Shown here one piece after another: positions 27,131 through 33,561 of a DNA stretch of 38,342 bases (its first letter is position 1; each line of letters starts with the position of its first letter). The notes below the pieces were generated by a model. The model made no database searches and was not told where the DNA came from. It saw only the letters and a list, made by a program, of their open reading frames with translations. The stretch is from Chloroflexota bacterium. Its GTDB lineage: Bacteria > Chloroflexota > Limnocylindria > Limnocylindrales > CSP1-4. The stretch is taken from contig PMKV01000019.1 in the NCBI GenBank assembly GCA_003157875.1, forward strand, positions 3,611 through 41,952. Reading direction: 5' to 3'. The position numbers were made by a program, and so were the translations under genes.

Positions 27131-28449
27131 GTGTCGCTGTCAACGACTATCAAGTCCATCCAGGACGTCATGCGCAAGGACGTCGGCGTTGATGGGGACG
27201 CCCAGCGGATCGGCCAGCTGACATGGCTCCTCTTCCTCAAGATCTGGGACGACCGGGAGCAAGAGCTAGAGCTAATCGAGCCCGGCTTCAGGTCGCCTCT
27301 GGTCGGAGTCACCTGGCACGAGAATGGCGTTGTCCGTCGCGCTGATGACCTTCGCTGGCGCACGTGGGCAGCTGACTCAGAAGGAATGACGGGCGACACG
27401 CTCATCAACTTCGCCGAGCAAACACTCTTTCCGGCGCTCAAGGGAATGGACGTCGGCCCCAATGTAGATGCCCTGGGGGAGGGGACCGGGCTAGCGAGCA
27501 CCCTGCGCAGGCGTCGCCTCCTCGTCAGGAGCGTATTTGAGGATGCTTATCAGTACATGAAGTCTGGGACCCTACTCCGCCAGGTGATCAATCGACTCCA
27601 GGCGGACATCGACTTCAACGACGCGCGTAATCGTCATCTGTTCGGGGACCTCTACGAGCAGATTCTCCGAGACCTGCAGAGTGCCGGCAACGCCGGCGAG
27701 TACTACACGCCCAGGGCGGTGACGCAGTTTGCCGTTGCGATGTCGAATCCCAGGCTCGGCGAAAAGGTCCTAGACCCTGCCTGTGGAACCGGAGGCTTCC
27801 TCGCTGGCTCGATTGAGCACGGCAACACCTTGGCCAGGCCTCTGCGCGACATCTCAACACGTGACCGCGTGGATGTGATCCTCACGAATCCGCCCTTCGG
27901 TGGAATAGAGGAGGACGGAATAGAGAACAACTTCCCTGTCGATGTTCGTACCCGCGAGACCGCTGATCTGTTCCTTGTGATGATCATGGAACTTCTCAAG
28001 CCGGGCGGCAGAGCAGCGGTGGTGCTTCCGGATGGGACTCTCTTCGGGGAAGGCGTGAAGACACGGATCAAGGAGCGTTTGCTCGCGGACTGCAATCTCC
28101 ACACGATCGTTCGGCTGCCAGCAGGGGTCTTCGCCCCCTAGAGAAGGGCACGCCAACGGTCGATGTCTGGTACTACGAACACCCGTACCCAGATGGCGTC
28201 GGGTCCTATTCGAAGACCAGACCGATGCGCGTCGAGGAATTCGACCCAGAGACTGAATGGTGGCACGATCGTCGCGAGACCGCCCAAGCCTGGAAAGTAA
28301 GCATCGCTCAGATTCGAGAGCGCAGGTACAACCTCGACATCCCGAATCCCAACAAGCCAAGCCCGGAACACGGCGACTCATTGGCGCTTCAGCGTCGAGT
28401 CGCCGAGGCTTCCGCGAAGGAAACAGGGCTACTAGATGACCTGGCTCGA
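27131..28449 (+). pseudogene. hsdM: Decayed type I restriction-modification methyltransferase subunit HsdM
   Basis: Clear HsdM sequence (LFLKIWDDREQELE; NAGEYYTPRAVTQFAV; motif I DPACGTGGF; motif IV NPPFGG; ETADLFLVMIMELLKPGGRA; GVKTRIKERLLADCNLHTIV), carrying several lesions. Between motif I (27773) and the RHGN-type block (27820) only a few residues separate GFLAGSIEH from GNTLARPLRD, where family members have about 50 more; part of the SAM-binding fold is missing. At 28136-28141 the frame stops just after GVFAP; the expected 11-residue TGIKTNLLFF-like segment is gone (about 31 bases), shifting the frame. HsdM sequence resumes at 28141 (KGTPTVDVWYYEHPYP; KPMR-like; QAWKVSI) in the other frame and runs without a stop into hsdS. 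Catalysis is unlikely. G+C is visibly lower than in neighbours. Confidence 0.85.
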
Positions 28450-29328
28450 ATGCTGGAACACGCCTCAGAGGGCTTCAGCCTGCCCCGCGATGGCATTCGC
28501 GCCGGTCTCCAAGCCGTAGTTGGTGCCCCGGATGGAATCGCATACCTTCGACGGATCGTTATGAGGCTGGCAGTGAGCGGAGCGCTGGTGCCTCAGGATG
28601 TGACTGACGAGCCGGGTGCAATCCTATTGCAGCGCATTCGGCGCACACGGACGAAGCTCGTCAAAGACCATTTCATTCACGATGCGATAGTCCTTCCAGC
28701 CCCATCAGCTCGCGATTTCGCGTTCCAACTACCCCCGCGATGGGCGTCTGCGCGGTTGTCAGAAGTCGCCGCGGTCCTGGATTTCCGCCGGGAGCCTGTC
28801 AACGCCACCGAACGCCAGCGGAGGATCGCCGGCAAGCCGGCCGACCAACTCTACCCGTACTACGGAGCGACGCAGCAGCAAGGCTGGATAGACGACTATC
28901 TATTCGATGAGGAGTTGGTTCTCCTCGGCGAGGATGGAGTTCCATTTCTAGACCCACTTCGCCCGAAGGCATACCTGGTCTCGGGCAAGTCATGGGTCAA
29001 CAACCATGCCCACGCCATCAGCGGCATCGAGATGTCCAATCCGTACCTGCTGCATTGGCTCAACAGCTTCGACTACAGCGGCCGGGTCACGGGGACCACT
29101 CGCGCGAAACTCAACCAGTTCCGTGTGAACGACATCCCGCTACCTGTTCCACCGAGGGCTGAGCAGGACCGGATCGTCGCTTGCGTCGCTGAGTTCATCG
29201 ACGTTCTCAACCGGTTGCGGGAGCTGCACGAAGCGATCAGCACGGCGAGTACCGAACTCGCGAGAGCGCTTCTGCATCAGGCTACGAAGCCAGTGAGCAC
29301 CGCTCGGAATGCCGATGGGCCCGCCTGA
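28450..29328 (+). CDS. hsdS: Type I restriction-modification specificity subunit HsdS, half-size
   Basis: The frame is shared with the shifted hsdM tail and has no stop between them; I place an independent start at ATG 28450, giving 292 residues. The N-terminal APDGIAYLRRIVMRLAVSGA, LVPQDVTDEPGAILLQRIRR is the typical leading conserved region. One target-recognition domain follows (FQLPPRWASARLSEV ... YYGATQQQGWIDDYLF ... KSWVNNHAHAI ... NPYLLHWLNS), then the conserved PVPPRAEQDRIVACV helix. Full HsdS proteins have two such units, so this is half-size: either a homodimerising single-domain form or a deletion product. No hsdR lies nearby, so restriction is not possible from this locus alone. 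The domain itself looks intact. Confidence 0.75.
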   Translation: MLEHASEGFSLPRDGIRAGLQAVVGAPDGIAYLRRIVMRLAVSGALVPQDVTDEPGAILLQRIRRTRTKLVKDHFIHDAIVLPAPSARDFAFQLPPRWASARLSEVAAVLDFRREPVNATERQRRIAGKPADQLYPYYGATQQQGWIDDYLFDEELVLLGEDGVPFLDPLRPKAYLVSGKSWVNNHAHAISGIEMSNPYLLHWLNSFDYSGRVTGTTRAKLNQFRVNDIPLPVPPRAEQDRIVACVAEFIDVLNRLRELHEAISTASTELARALLHQATKPVSTARNADGPA

Positions 29329-29655: not shown

Positions 29656-29679
29656 CAACGAAACGCCCGAAGGAACCGC
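29656..29679 (+). repeat. Repeat P, copy 1
   Basis: A 24-base segment with only two mismatches to 30773-30796; the last 16 bases (CGCCCGAAGGAACCGC, 29664-29679) are identical in both copies. Same orientation. Confidence 0.8.
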
Positions 29680-29732
29680 GACCCCGCATCGTTCGGCCGA
29701 TCCGAGAATCGGTCGAGTCGTTCGGCTTCTCG

Positions 29733-29837
29733 TGGCCCCTCCGGGCAATGCCGACTCTAGGCCGATAGGAGCGCTATGCCAACGGCTTTTTCCACCTGTT
29801 TCGTAACTCAAGACGGGGCGCGGGGGAACTGTCCACG
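29733..29837 (+). repeat. Repeat Q, copy 1
   Basis: Diverged copy of 31044-31148, aligning without gaps over 105 bases. Shared blocks: TGGCCCCTCCGGGCAA at position 1, a TAG block near 26, TTTTCCACC at 56 (TTATCCACC in copy 2), TTT near 67 and TGTCCAC at 98. Identity between the blocks is low, but all spacings are equal. Confidence 0.75.
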
Positions 29838-29874
29838 ATTCATGCACACGGACCGCGGTGGGCCGGGCGAAGGC

Positions 29875-29907
29875 GGGGCTAACCCGGGGCTAACCCGGGG
29901 CTAACCC
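29875..29907. repeat. Three 11-base tandem repeats
   Basis: GGGGCTAACCC occurs three times without spacer (29875-29885, 29886-29896, 29897-29907), ending six bases past the stop of the leftward mannosyltransferase gene. Each unit is nearly self-complementary (GGG..CCC), so the array can fold into several hairpins and could act as a transcript end on the minus strand. Confidence 0.85.
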
Positions 29908-29912
29908 GAGTG

Positions 29913-30671
29913 TCAGGCCTCCGTCTTGAGGCCGCGCCGGCGGCGCCGGGTCAGTGTCGAAAGTCGCAGCGCCACGACCAGCAAGAGCGCCTCCATGAAA
30001 ATGTTCATGCTCATCTTGGAGGTCCCCACGCGCCGCTCCTCGAAGGTGATCGGCACCTCGACCACGCGCGCTCCGGCCATGCGAGCCCGAAACGTCGTCT
30101 CGATCTGGAAGGCGTAGCCGCCGGCGTGCAATCGGTCGAGGTCGATCTGGCGCAGCGCGGCCGCGCGCCATGCCTTGAAGCCACCCGTCAGGTCGTGATA
30201 CGGCATGAGCAGAACGATCTGGGAGAAGACGCTGCCGCCGCGGCTGACGAACCGCCGCAGGAAGTTCCAGCGCGGAATCTGTCCGCCCTTGACGTAGCGG
30301 GACCCAAGAACCAGGTCGGCCGTGCCGCTCCTGAGCGGCTCGAGCAGCGAAGGCAGAAAGCGGACCGGATGGCTGAAGTCGGCGTCTATCTGGACCACGA
30401 TGTCGGCGTCGCGGGCCAGCAGGTCCTTGAATGCGGCCACGTAGGCCCGCCCGAGGCCCTGCTTGGCCGATCGGTGCATGACCGCGATTGCATTGTTGCC
30501 TTTGGCCATCACGTCGGCCAGCTCGCCCGTTCCGTCGGGGGAACCGTCGTCGACGATCAGGACGTGGGCGTCTGGCACCGCACCGAGGATTGCGTCGACG
30601 ATCGGGCCGACGTTCTCGCGTTCGTTGTAGGTCGGGACGATGATCCAGATGCTCGGACTGGCGGGCGGCAT
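29913..30671 (-). CDS. Polyprenol monophosphomannose synthase-like GT2 glycosyltransferase
   Basis: A 252-residue GT2 enzyme of the dolichol-phosphate mannosyltransferase group. Marks: IWIIVPTYNERENVGPIVDA, ILGAVPDAHVLIVDDGSPDGTG, the nucleotide-metal motif in VVQIDADFSHP, DLVLGSRYVKGG, and PYHDLTGGFKAWRAAAL. It should move mannose (or glucose) from GDP/UDP sugar to a polyprenyl phosphate at the inner membrane face, feeding protein or glycolipid glycosylation outside. The C-terminus has a weakly hydrophobic stretch (FMEALLLVVALRLSTL) followed by RRRRR, but no full pair of helices. The gene stands alone between two repeat-bearing non-coding blocks. Confidence 0.9.
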   Translation of the reverse strand: MPPASPSIWIIVPTYNERENVGPIVDAILGAVPDAHVLIVDDGSPDGTGELADVMAKGNNAIAVMHRSAKQGLGRAYVAAFKDLLARDADIVVQIDADFSHPVRFLPSLLEPLRSGTADLVLGSRYVKGGQIPRWNFLRRFVSRGGSVFSQIVLLMPYHDLTGGFKAWRAAALRQIDLDRLHAGGYAFQIETTFRARMAGARVVEVPITFEERRVGTSKMSMNIFMEALLLVVALRLSTLTRRRRRGLKTEA

Positions 30672-30772
30672 CGACTTCCTGGCTGCTGGTGGGTCGCGGC
30701 CGAGGATACCGCCTCTCTCCCCTACTCTGCTTGACGGTAGGCCGACGAGCTACGGGCGGCTGAATCAGGACA

Positions 30773-30796
30773 CAACAAAGCGCCCGAAGGAACCGC
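30773..30796 (+). repeat. Repeat P, copy 2
   Basis: Second copy of 29656-29679, two mismatches in 24 bases, same orientation. The distance from P to Q is 263 bases here but 69 in copy 1. Confidence 0.8.
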
Positions 30797-31043
30797 TTTG
30801 ATCGGACTGCGGGTTCGCGCGTACCGGCCGCTTCGACCTCCGCGAGCAAGGGATCCGAGGACTCCTCGCTCAGCGGTGGACCGCGCTCCGGCCACTGCCG
30901 GACCTGCCACCAAACCCTCTACATTCTGGCTTCCGCGGCGTGCGTTCTGTGCTAGTTCTCAGGAACCGTTGCGGGCTCCTCAGTTTTTACGCAGATCGTA
31001 GGCACCGTTTCCGCCGGAACCGCTGGCCTGATGTCGATCTCGC

Positions 31044-31148
31044 TGGCCCCTCCGGGCAAGACAGAATGTAGATCCGGCGAGCCCCAGGAGGAAGAGGCTT
31101 ATCCACCACTTTGGCCCTGGCGTTGGGTAGTTTTGGGAGTTGTCCACC
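31044..31148 (+). repeat. Repeat Q, copy 2
   Basis: Second copy of 29733-29837. The start TGGCCCCTCCGGGCAA is identical; TTATCCACC begins 55 bases later and TTGTCCACC a further 41 bases later, the same intervals as in copy 1. Both short motifs resemble DnaA boxes by one or two changes. Confidence 0.75.
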
Positions 31149-31224: not shown

Positions 31225-32541
31225 CTATGCGTCGGCCTCGCCGTCGCGGAGCGACTCCCGCCATTTGGCCGCGACCGCGTCCAGCTCACCGGCGAGTGCG
31301 GGGCTGACGCGACCCGTGACCCGGACATCTGTGGCGCGGTATTCGAGTTCGACGGTGCCGCGTTCGCGGATGCGGGCGATCAGCTCTCCGGCTCGATAGG
31401 GCACCGCCACGTCGATATCCACCCAGATCGACGCCAACAGGGCGGAAAGCTCGGCCTTGAGTGTTTCGAGCCCGTAGCCGGTTACGGCCGAGATGAGGAC
31501 CTGGCCGGAGATGGCGGGTGCGGGGGTATTGCCGTCGCGGGCCGCTGCCTCGATCAGGTCGGCCTTGTTGAAGGCCACCAGACGTGGCTTGTCGCCGGCG
31601 CCGAGCTCTTCGAGAACCGTCTGCACGGTGGCGCGGTGCTGGGCGAAGTGCCGGTCCGAGGCGTCGACGATCTCAAGCAGGACGTCGGCGCGCGTCACCT
31701 CCTCGAGCGTGGCCCGGAAGGCGTCGACGAGCTGGTGGGGCAGCTTGTGGATGAAGCCCACCGTGTCGGTGACGATCGCGGTCTGACCCTCGCCGAGCTT
31801 GACCTGGCGGGAGGTCGGATCCACCGTCGCGAAGAGGCGGTCCTCGGCCTTGACGACTACTGAGCCGACGAGCGAATTCAGCAGGGTGGATTTGCCGGCG
31901 TTGGTGTAGCCGACGATCGCGACGGTCGGGAAGAGCCGCCGGTCGCGGGCGCGGGTCGCGGTTCGGCGCTGCTCGGCGACCTGCTCGACCCGCTCCTTGA
32001 ACTTCTTGATCCGCTCTCGGACGAGGCGACGGTCCGTCTCCAGCTGCGACTCACCGGGGCCTCGGGTACCGATTCCGCCGCCGGTTCGCGAAAGGTGAGT
32101 CCACATCCTGGTCAGACGCGGCAGCTGGTATTCGAGCTGGGCCAGCTCGACCTGGAGACGGCCTTCGTGCGTCTGGGCGTGCTGGGCGAAGATATCGAGG
32201 ATCAGGCGCGATCGATCGATGACCTTGGTCTTGACCGCCTCCTCCAGGGCGCGCTGCTGGGCAGGTGAGAGCTCGTCATCGGCGATCAGGACCGTGTAGC
32301 CGGTCTCGGACTTGGCGGCGACCAGTTCGTCTACCTTGCCCTTGCCGACGTAGTAGTTGGGGTCGAGGTGGCGGCGGTTCTGCCACTCGGCCCCGACGAC
32401 TTCGGCCCCGGCGGTGTCGGCCAGGCTGGCCAGCTCGCCGATCGATTCTTCGGCGGTCCAGCCCGGGTCGTCGCCGGTGTCGACGGCGACCAGGAACGCG
32501 CGCTCGACCGGTGCGGCGAGATCGATCATGTCCTTGGGCAT
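31225..32541 (-). CDS. hflX: GTPase HflX
   Basis: A 438-residue ribosome-associated GTPase. The N-terminal HflX domain (about 12-195) has NRRHLDPNYYVGKGKVDEL, SPAQQRALEEAVKTKVIDR and the glycine-rich GGGIGTRGPGESQLE. The G domain has G1 GYTNAGKST (211-219), G3 DTVGF (259-263) and G4 NKAD. HflX splits stalled ribosomes after heat or antibiotic stress. It is the last gene of the rny operon, 57 bases after miaA; hflX next to miaA is common. No good ribosome site before ATG 32541; ATG 32529 is a possible alternative. Confidence 0.95.
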   Translation of the reverse strand: MPKDMIDLAAPVERAFLVAVDTGDDPGWTAEESIGELASLADTAGAEVVGAEWQNRRHLDPNYYVGKGKVDELVAAKSETGYTVLIADDELSPAQQRALEEAVKTKVIDRSRLILDIFAQHAQTHEGRLQVELAQLEYQLPRLTRMWTHLSRTGGGIGTRGPGESQLETDRRLVRERIKKFKERVEQVAEQRRTATRARDRRLFPTVAIVGYTNAGKSTLLNSLVGSVVVKAEDRLFATVDPTSRQVKLGEGQTAIVTDTVGFIHKLPHQLVDAFRATLEEVTRADVLLEIVDASDRHFAQHRATVQTVLEELGAGDKPRLVAFNKADLIEAAARDGNTPAPAISGQVLISAVTGYGLETLKAELSALLASIWVDIDVAVPYRAGELIARIRERGTVELEYRATDVRVTGRVSPALAGELDAVAAKWRESLRDGEADA

Positions 32542-32598: not shown

Positions 32599-33561
32599 CT
32601 AGCTCGGCAGGTAGTGATCGATCGTCGCCAGGGCCTTCCCGATCGGCAAGTCGTGGCTCGCGTCGAGCCAGCAGATCTCCGGCTCGCGGCGGAACCAGGT
32701 GGCCTGGTGGCGGGCCAGCAGGATGTTGCGGCGGGCATCCTCGGCGACGGCCTCTTCGCGGGTGAGCCGGCCGGCGATGAGCGCCAGGCTCTCGGAGTAG
32801 CCGATGCCGGAGAAGCTGGGCGAGGCAGGGTCGAAGCGGGCGACGAGCGCCTCCGTCTCCTCGACCAACCCGGCGTCGAACTGCGCCTGGGCGCGCGTGC
32901 GGATACGTTCCCGCAGCACGGGAGACTCGACGGTCAGGCCGAGCCACAGGACCGGGCGCCCATAGCCGGCCGGCTCGGGGAGGGCCGCGTCGCCCTGGAG
33001 ACGGGCTATCTCGAGCGCCCTCACGACGCGTCGCGGATTGCGCGCGTCGATGACCGCGGCGCGCGTCGGAGCCAGTTCGCGCAGCTCGGCTACCAGGGCG
33101 GGCAATCCTTCCGCGACGAGTCGCGCATCCACGGCGGCGCGCACGGCCGGGTCCCACGGCAACTGGTCGACTGCCATGCCGCGAGCCACGGCCCGCAGAT
33201 AGAAACCCGTGCCACCAACGAGGATCGCGACGGCGCCACGTTCGGCGATTGCCGCCAGCGCCTCTCGGGCGTGGCCGGCGTATTCGGCCACGCTGAACGG
33301 CGCGTCCGGGTCGACGAGATCCAGACCGTGATGGGAGACTCGGGCTCGCTCTGCCAGCGTGACCTTGGCCGTGCCGATGTCCATGCCCCGGTACACCTGG
33401 CGTGAGTCGGCCGAGATGATCTCGGCAGAGATACCGCGCGCGACGAGTGCTTCGGCGAGCGCCAGCGACAAAGCGGTCTTGCCGCTCGCCGTGGCACCGG
33501 CCAGCACGATGAGAGGCGGCCGGCCCTCAGGCGAGGACATCCGGCCCTCAGGCGAGGACAT
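32599..33561 (-). CDS. miaA: tRNA dimethylallyltransferase MiaA
   Basis: A 320-residue enzyme that adds a dimethylallyl group to A37 of tRNAs reading UNN codons; MiaB then methylthiolates it. Marks: P-loop GATASGKT (22-29), IISADSRQVYRGMDIGTAKV, VGGTGFYLRAV, DARNPRRVVRALEI and the FSGIGYSESLALI region. The first 14 residues are MSSPEGR twice because of a 21-base duplication, giving two possible starts (33561 and 33540). With the first, the gene overlaps miaB by 14 bases; with the second it begins just after the miaB stop. Confidence 0.95.
   Translation of the reverse strand: MSSPEGRMSSPEGRPPLIVLAGATASGKTALSLALAEALVARGISAEIISADSRQVYRGMDIGTAKVTLAERARVSHHGLDLVDPDAPFSVAEYAGHAREALAAIAERGAVAILVGGTGFYLRAVARGMAVDQLPWDPAVRAAVDARLVAEGLPALVAELRELAPTRAAVIDARNPRRVVRALEIARLQGDAALPEPAGYGRPVLWLGLTVESPVLRERIRTRAQAQFDAGLVEETEALVARFDPASPSFSGIGYSESLALIAGRLTREEAVAEDARRNILLARHQATWFRREPEICWLDASHDLPIGKALATIDHYLPS
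33520..33561. repeat. 21-base tandem duplication at the miaB/miaA junction
   Basis: On the minus strand the 21-base unit beginning ATGTCCTCGCCTGAGGGC occurs twice in tandem. It includes the miaA ATG and, in the miaB frame, the stop codon TGA, so the junction has two in-frame miaA starts and a repeated stop/start context. Confidence 0.85.

Follow-up and report, generated by a model that had tools for sequence, protein, structure and literature searches.

The locus raises the question of why two non-coding stretches on either side of a mannosyltransferase gene carry the same two sequence blocks, P and Q, in a window of 38,342 nucleotides (the whole stretch of DNA that was analysed) from a Chloroflexota contig. 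The initial annotation had described a spaced repeat pair flanking this gene, with P extending over 24 bases with two mismatches and Q aligning without gaps over 105 bases, and our comparison reproduces both observations. P is identical at 22/24 bases between 29656-29679 and 30773-30796, while the Q copies, which begin at 29733 and 31044, have identical first 16 bases and share 55/108 bases in a gapless alignment with all boxes at equal offsets. The best ungapped alignment of the two intergenic stretches scored 20, compared with 10-15 in 25 dinucleotide shuffles. The exact spacing that had been claimed applies inside Q but not between P and Q, where the distance from start to start is 77 bases in copy 1 and 271 bases in copy 2. 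A third copy lies at G000:C84:15364, so that three copies were seen in the source genome in total.

By its sequence, each pair of blocks makes up a full small-RNA gene on the minus strand, an assignment that we consider well supported: Q is the promoter together with the 5' arm of the predicted RNA, and P is its 3' arm followed by a U-rich tail (Table 1). The distance from P to Q differs because the two blocks are the ends of RNAs of unequal length, whereas the exact spacing within Q follows from promoter geometry, in the order DnaA-box-like site, -35, -10 and RNA 5' end. Two minus-strand RNA genes thus take the place of the generic repeat pair. The DNA between the blocks had been taken as unconserved; when each unit is aligned with its orthologues from sister species, however, its interior proves conserved, the mean column identity being 85% in the long unit, while the short one has a core that is nearly invariant across 13 genus copies. 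Selection on protein-binding spacing and an old element family had been offered as explanations, and both are upheld, the former as a spacing constraint on protein-binding boxes and the latter as an old family present in multiple copies. Altogether, we interpret the units as members of an independently transcribed, DnaA-linked, multi-copy family of structured RNAs that would bind a protein or the ribosome, with a probability of about 0.72. Within this interpretation, the predicted gene unit, strand, promoter layout, structure, copy number and synteny are well supported by sequence comparison, and we infer from them that the RNA genes are transcribed.

Table 1 Predicted RNA genes, their promoter elements and neighbouring genes in the window. 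Positions count from the first letter of the window.
Feature	Position	Strand	Basis
Short small-RNA gene body (copy 1), ~87 nt plus U-rich tail	29656..29747	-	conserved core, fold, covariation
5' arm of closing helix, UGCCCGGAGGGGCC	29734..29747	-	pairs with 29665-29677, G.U pairs conserved
3' arm of closing helix, GGUUCCUUCGGGC, then GUUUCGUUG tail (intrinsic-terminator-like)	29665..29677	-	
-10 element TAGAGT, 6 nt ahead of RNA 5' arm	29754..29759	-	
-35 element TTGGCA, spacer 17 bp	29777..29782	-	
DnaA-box-like site GTGGAAAA, just upstream of -35	29788..29795	-	
Distal DnaA-box-like site GTGGACAG	29829..29836	-	
Polyprenol-phosphate mannosyltransferase-like GT2 (PPM synthase), between RNA genes	29913..30671	-	Pfam PF00535 E 2.3e-25
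Long small-RNA gene body (copy 2), ~280 nt plus U-rich tail	30773..31058	-	18 orthologues, covariation, fold
5' arm of closing helix	31045..31058	-	helix 1 of consensus structure
3' arm of closing helix, then GCUUUGUUG tail	30782..30794	-	helix 1 of consensus structure
-10 element TACATT	31065..31070	-	
-35 position, weak, CTTCCT	31089..31094	-	
DnaA-box-like site GTGGATAA	31099..31106	-	
Distal DnaA-box-like site GTGGACAA	31140..31147	-	
hflX, immediately upstream of long RNA gene	31225..32541	-	Pfam GTP-bdg_N/M, MMR_HSR1
miaA, upstream of hflX	32599..33561	-	Pfam IPPT E 8.3e-64

P (GCCCGAAGGAACC) and the initial block of Q have complementary sequences, and in the predicted RNA the two are the strands of one closing helix, which comprises 13 bp on the minus strand (GCCCGAAGGGGCC...GGUUCCUUCGGGC). 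Among 31 short-class copies, 99.3% of the helix cells are paired, A-U to G-C exchanges occur, and two G.U positions are conserved (in 29/31 and 31/31 copies). A conserved G.U pair on the minus strand would read A.C on the opposite one, which identifies the minus strand as that of the RNA, and this strand also folds more stably in 91/93 copies. An RNA read from the plus strand was rejected, with its full blocks showing no excess folding and the G.U pairs turning into A.C mismatches. The RNA bodies fall into discrete length classes between about 80 and 290 nt, and several of these classes contain the hairpin motif GAGAU-NNC-AUCAANGG (23 occurrences compared with 0.04 in shuffles), which makes up the whole core of the shortest relatives. 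At the 3' end of the aligned copies, the closing helix is followed by a U-rich tail, by sequence an intrinsic terminator; a relative from the class (L119) has a perfect terminator tail, GUUUCUUUUUUU.

Conserved RNA structure, which the initial annotation had proposed to look for by covariation, is seen in the long RNA gene, read from about 31057 towards 30773. Pairing across the 82-pair consensus structure of its 18 orthologues reaches 96.6%, and in 16 pairs both partners have changed. Among five measures of this covariation, four were equalled in 0/500 shuffles and the fifth in 4/500; because the shuffles ignore sequence relatedness and the structure was predicted from the very alignment tested, we regard the covariation as strong support rather than proof. 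Sliding the pairing partners abolishes the signal, and the fold has a z-score of -3.34 on the minus strand. A protein-coding reading of the long RNA was discarded, since orthologue length varies from 282 to 287 nt and no reading frame is kept. The short RNA, read from about 29746 towards 29656, is predicted to form a rod closed by 13 bp. Its fold in the window is barely better than that of shuffles (z -1.38), and its case therefore rests on conservation and pairing; covariation is present in the short class of copies.

The promoter layout could be aligned in 43 copies. On the minus strand it consists of GTGGACAA, about 30-40 nt, GTGGATAA, 4-6 nt and TTG (-35), with about 17-18 nt from there to the -10 element (TAnnnT) and 6 nt from the -10 to the start of the helix. 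Across 90 distinct upstream stretches, TAnnnT lies 4-9 nt before the helix in 80 and exactly 6 nt before it in 67 (dinucleotide shuffles, 2.75). A GTGGAHAA box starts 47-50 nt before the helix in most of the 90 and in about 0 of the shuffles; as these stretches were pre-selected for GTGGA/GTTGA within 90 nt, it is the locked position of the box, not its presence, that counts as evidence. The promoter sites resemble the DnaA box (GTGGAYAA; up to three per copy), and upstream of dnaA in this lineage we found TT[AG]TCCAC[AGC], the same word as in the boxes of the RNA promoters. At its ninth base the proximal box mostly has G, where the classical DnaA box has A.

A search for the combined box/-35/-10 pattern in 14 genomes returned 29 places, sorted by inspection of the downstream DNA into 19 RNA genes, 9 rsmG and 1 other (an automated sRNA flag, which was too strict, marked 4), and 0 matches for reversed-pattern controls. 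In the class, promoters of rsmG (gidB) share the GTGGATAA-N5-TTGAC layout with those of the small-RNA genes (loci L127-L130, L134, L167, L177, L181, L184-L186, L189, L194, L195). DnaA directly targets trmEF-rsmG-noc in B. subtilis (PMC8203912). Because the boxes match the word upstream of dnaA, rsmG shares the layout and B. subtilis rsmG is a DnaA target, control of the RNA genes by DnaA appears likely, and we consider binding of DnaA at their promoters probable. One could also imagine that the copies are complex intrinsic terminators of the hflX operon or clusters of DnaA-titration sites, with an incidental RNA fold. Their frequent position just after hflX, the U-rich tail and the up to three boxes per copy would fit such a role, but each copy has its own predicted promoter with box positions locked to it, the core covaries far from the terminator, and copies also occur at unrelated loci, which makes this explanation very improbable.

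A lack of copies in relatives had been named at the outset as a refuting result, and the outcome clearly favoured the initial annotation, with copies in essentially all family genomes. The census model consisted of the promoter and the 5' arm, and its counts, which include rsmG promoters, gave matches in 107/107 family genomes, mostly several in each; G081 and G082 are among the few family genomes with only weak matches, which may be rsmG promoters alone. In a phylum sample of 301 genomes, we obtained matches in all 20 family genomes, 14 of the 18 remaining class members and one of the 263 genomes from other classes, this single genome (G299) being without the RNA arms. A search with the exact P 18-mer across all GTDB species gave mostly Chloroflexota. 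Further 18-mer matches in Fimbriimonadaceae, Cytophagales, Rhodobacteraceae and others were set aside, since they have no Q and look like chance. One contig labelled Acidimicrobiia (L047, JAOSJK010000003.1) is near-identical over both RNA genes to a Chloroflexi contig (L045) and also has hflX at the RNA genes; it is probably mis-binned. A version of ~240 nt occurs in two other families of the class (L117, L119, L121, L124) and is very similar between them.

The genomic surroundings are likewise conserved in part. In the genus of the window, the order is miaA, hflX, long RNA, PPM synthase and short RNA, the PPM synthase gene lying in the same place in sister species, and across the family one to three co-directional RNA genes come after miaA-hflX. 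Such vertical synteny at hflX across genera speaks against a mobile or repeat element (a MITE, PATE, HEARO-like RNA element or integron attC), as do orthologous hflX loci that show no empty sites and a promoter and terminator that account for both ends. The multiple copies, direct repeats, conserved ends and variable interior would suit such an element. HEARO/omega RNA (RF02033) had no match in the source genome, although control genomes were likewise without a match. Taken together, we find this origin hardly credible.

Further copies lie ahead of a purine nucleoside phosphorylase gene or an ECF sigma factor gene, or close to genes of no evident relation, and we found no common function among the neighbours of copies away from hflX. 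For example, one RNA subclass is located directly upstream of a purine nucleoside phosphorylase-like gene (L170, L180, L182, L191, L112), and at least three loci among L117, L119, L121 and L124 have the ~240-nt RNA preceding an ECF sigma factor-like gene (both genes named by eye). Since some copies precede a gene of the same orientation (PPM synthase, purine nucleoside phosphorylase or ECF sigma), and about 100 nt separate the end of the long RNA from the start of the PPM synthase gene that follows it, the RNA might instead be the 5' UTR of the next gene, i.e. a cis-acting leader or riboswitch-like attenuator with the P arm as a regulated terminator. However, no downstream gene or pathway is constant (PPM synthase, PNP, ECF sigma or none), two to three copies follow each other in tandem arrays, an hsdS gene converges on copy 1 of the window, and the terminator-like end is complete with no alternative antiterminator arm seen. 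A leader is thus an improbable explanation. Two further features were noted around the short RNA gene. Between its promoter and the 3' end of the PPM synthase gene, GGGCTAACCCG is repeated as three 11-nt tandem copies (29876-29908), and a possibly truncated type I restriction-modification remnant lies at 27131-29328, with an HsdM-like ORF followed by HsdS; the best N6_Mtase stretch of the 336-aa HsdM-like ORF stops at position 219 of 311.

Returning to independent RNA genes, the following course of events can be proposed. RNA polymerase would start at the sigma-70-type promoter in Q, at about the first base of the closing helix, and would stop at the P arm, with the closing 5'-3' helix and then the U-rich tail serving as an intrinsic terminator. 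The product would be a rod or a branched RNA of about 80 to 290 nt depending on the paralogue. Given the DnaA-box-like site or sites immediately ahead of the -35, DnaA probably couples its expression to replication or growth, and the folded RNA body, made in step with these, would then bind a partner. Conserved residues in helices, closed loops and a repeated hairpin, without an exposed conserved tail, lead us to favour partner binding over antisense action, which by our judgement of the predicted structures is less likely. That the RNA works by binding a protein or the ribosome is nevertheless a tentative proposal, and the adjacency to hflX, together with the promoter layout common to rsmG, gives a hint of the ribosome as the partner. 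A broader scheme is speculative, with the odds well against it. In it, a class-wide set of paralogous structured RNAs, alike at their ends and interchangeable in their cores, would lie beside hflX, be switched along with rsmG by DnaA, and link replication initiation to ribosome assembly or rescue via a new RNA-protein or RNA-ribosome complex. A structured RNA without a known relative, found in nearly every sampled genome of this large class and usually in multiple copies, would point to an important unrecognised RNA function. The family is also a concrete test case for replication-ribosome coupling in Chloroflexota, and if the link to DnaA and rsmG is true, it would be the first structured small-RNA family under DnaA-type control according to the sources checked.

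The RNA family of this group of uncultured Chloroflexota is previously undescribed in the open literature, to which the search was confined. Rfam 15 gave no family at the gathering threshold and no plausible one at E up to 5, and the statement that no known repeat class matches was borne out. Among known RNAs, 6S RNA (RF00013) is likewise a structured RNA that has its own gene and whose 5' and 3' ends pair. Its covariance model matched 0/101 family genomes and none in the class, compared with 43/201 genomes of a phylum sample, and the paired ends with one strong closing helix and the high prevalence would suit a lineage-specific functional replacement of 6S RNA, i.e. a rod-like RNA binding RNA polymerase. 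The absence of 6S matches says little, however, because most other Chloroflexota are also without one. Moreover, the new RNAs range from 80-290 nt with several paralogues of very different length per genome, and their short forms are rods with small internal loops instead of a large central bubble, so that we regard a 6S replacement as quite improbable. Chloroflexi-1 RNA (RF01698), listed for Chloroflexus aggregans (PMC2864571), is also a candidate structured RNA from Chloroflexota but gave no cmscan match to the new RNAs.

Protein-sequestering sRNAs of the CsrB/RsmZ type are encoded several times per genome, each behind boxes at fixed positions, and contain a recurring hairpin. By analogy, the new family may be compared to them in its multi-copy sRNA genes, fixed upstream boxes and repeated internal hairpin. 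In contrast, its hairpin motif is GAU-NNC-AUC with AGA/AAN, a GGA-loop consensus was not noticed in an informal look, and the boxes are of the DnaA type in place of the GacA boxes of CsrB/RsmZ genes. Neither 'small RNA' nor 'sRNA' occurs as a term in a review of DnaA transcriptional targets from 2021 (PMC8203912). With DnaA-regulated promoters such as that of the B. subtilis rsmG operon, the new genes share DnaA-box-like sites adjoining the -35, but differ in that the transcript here is a predicted structured RNA.
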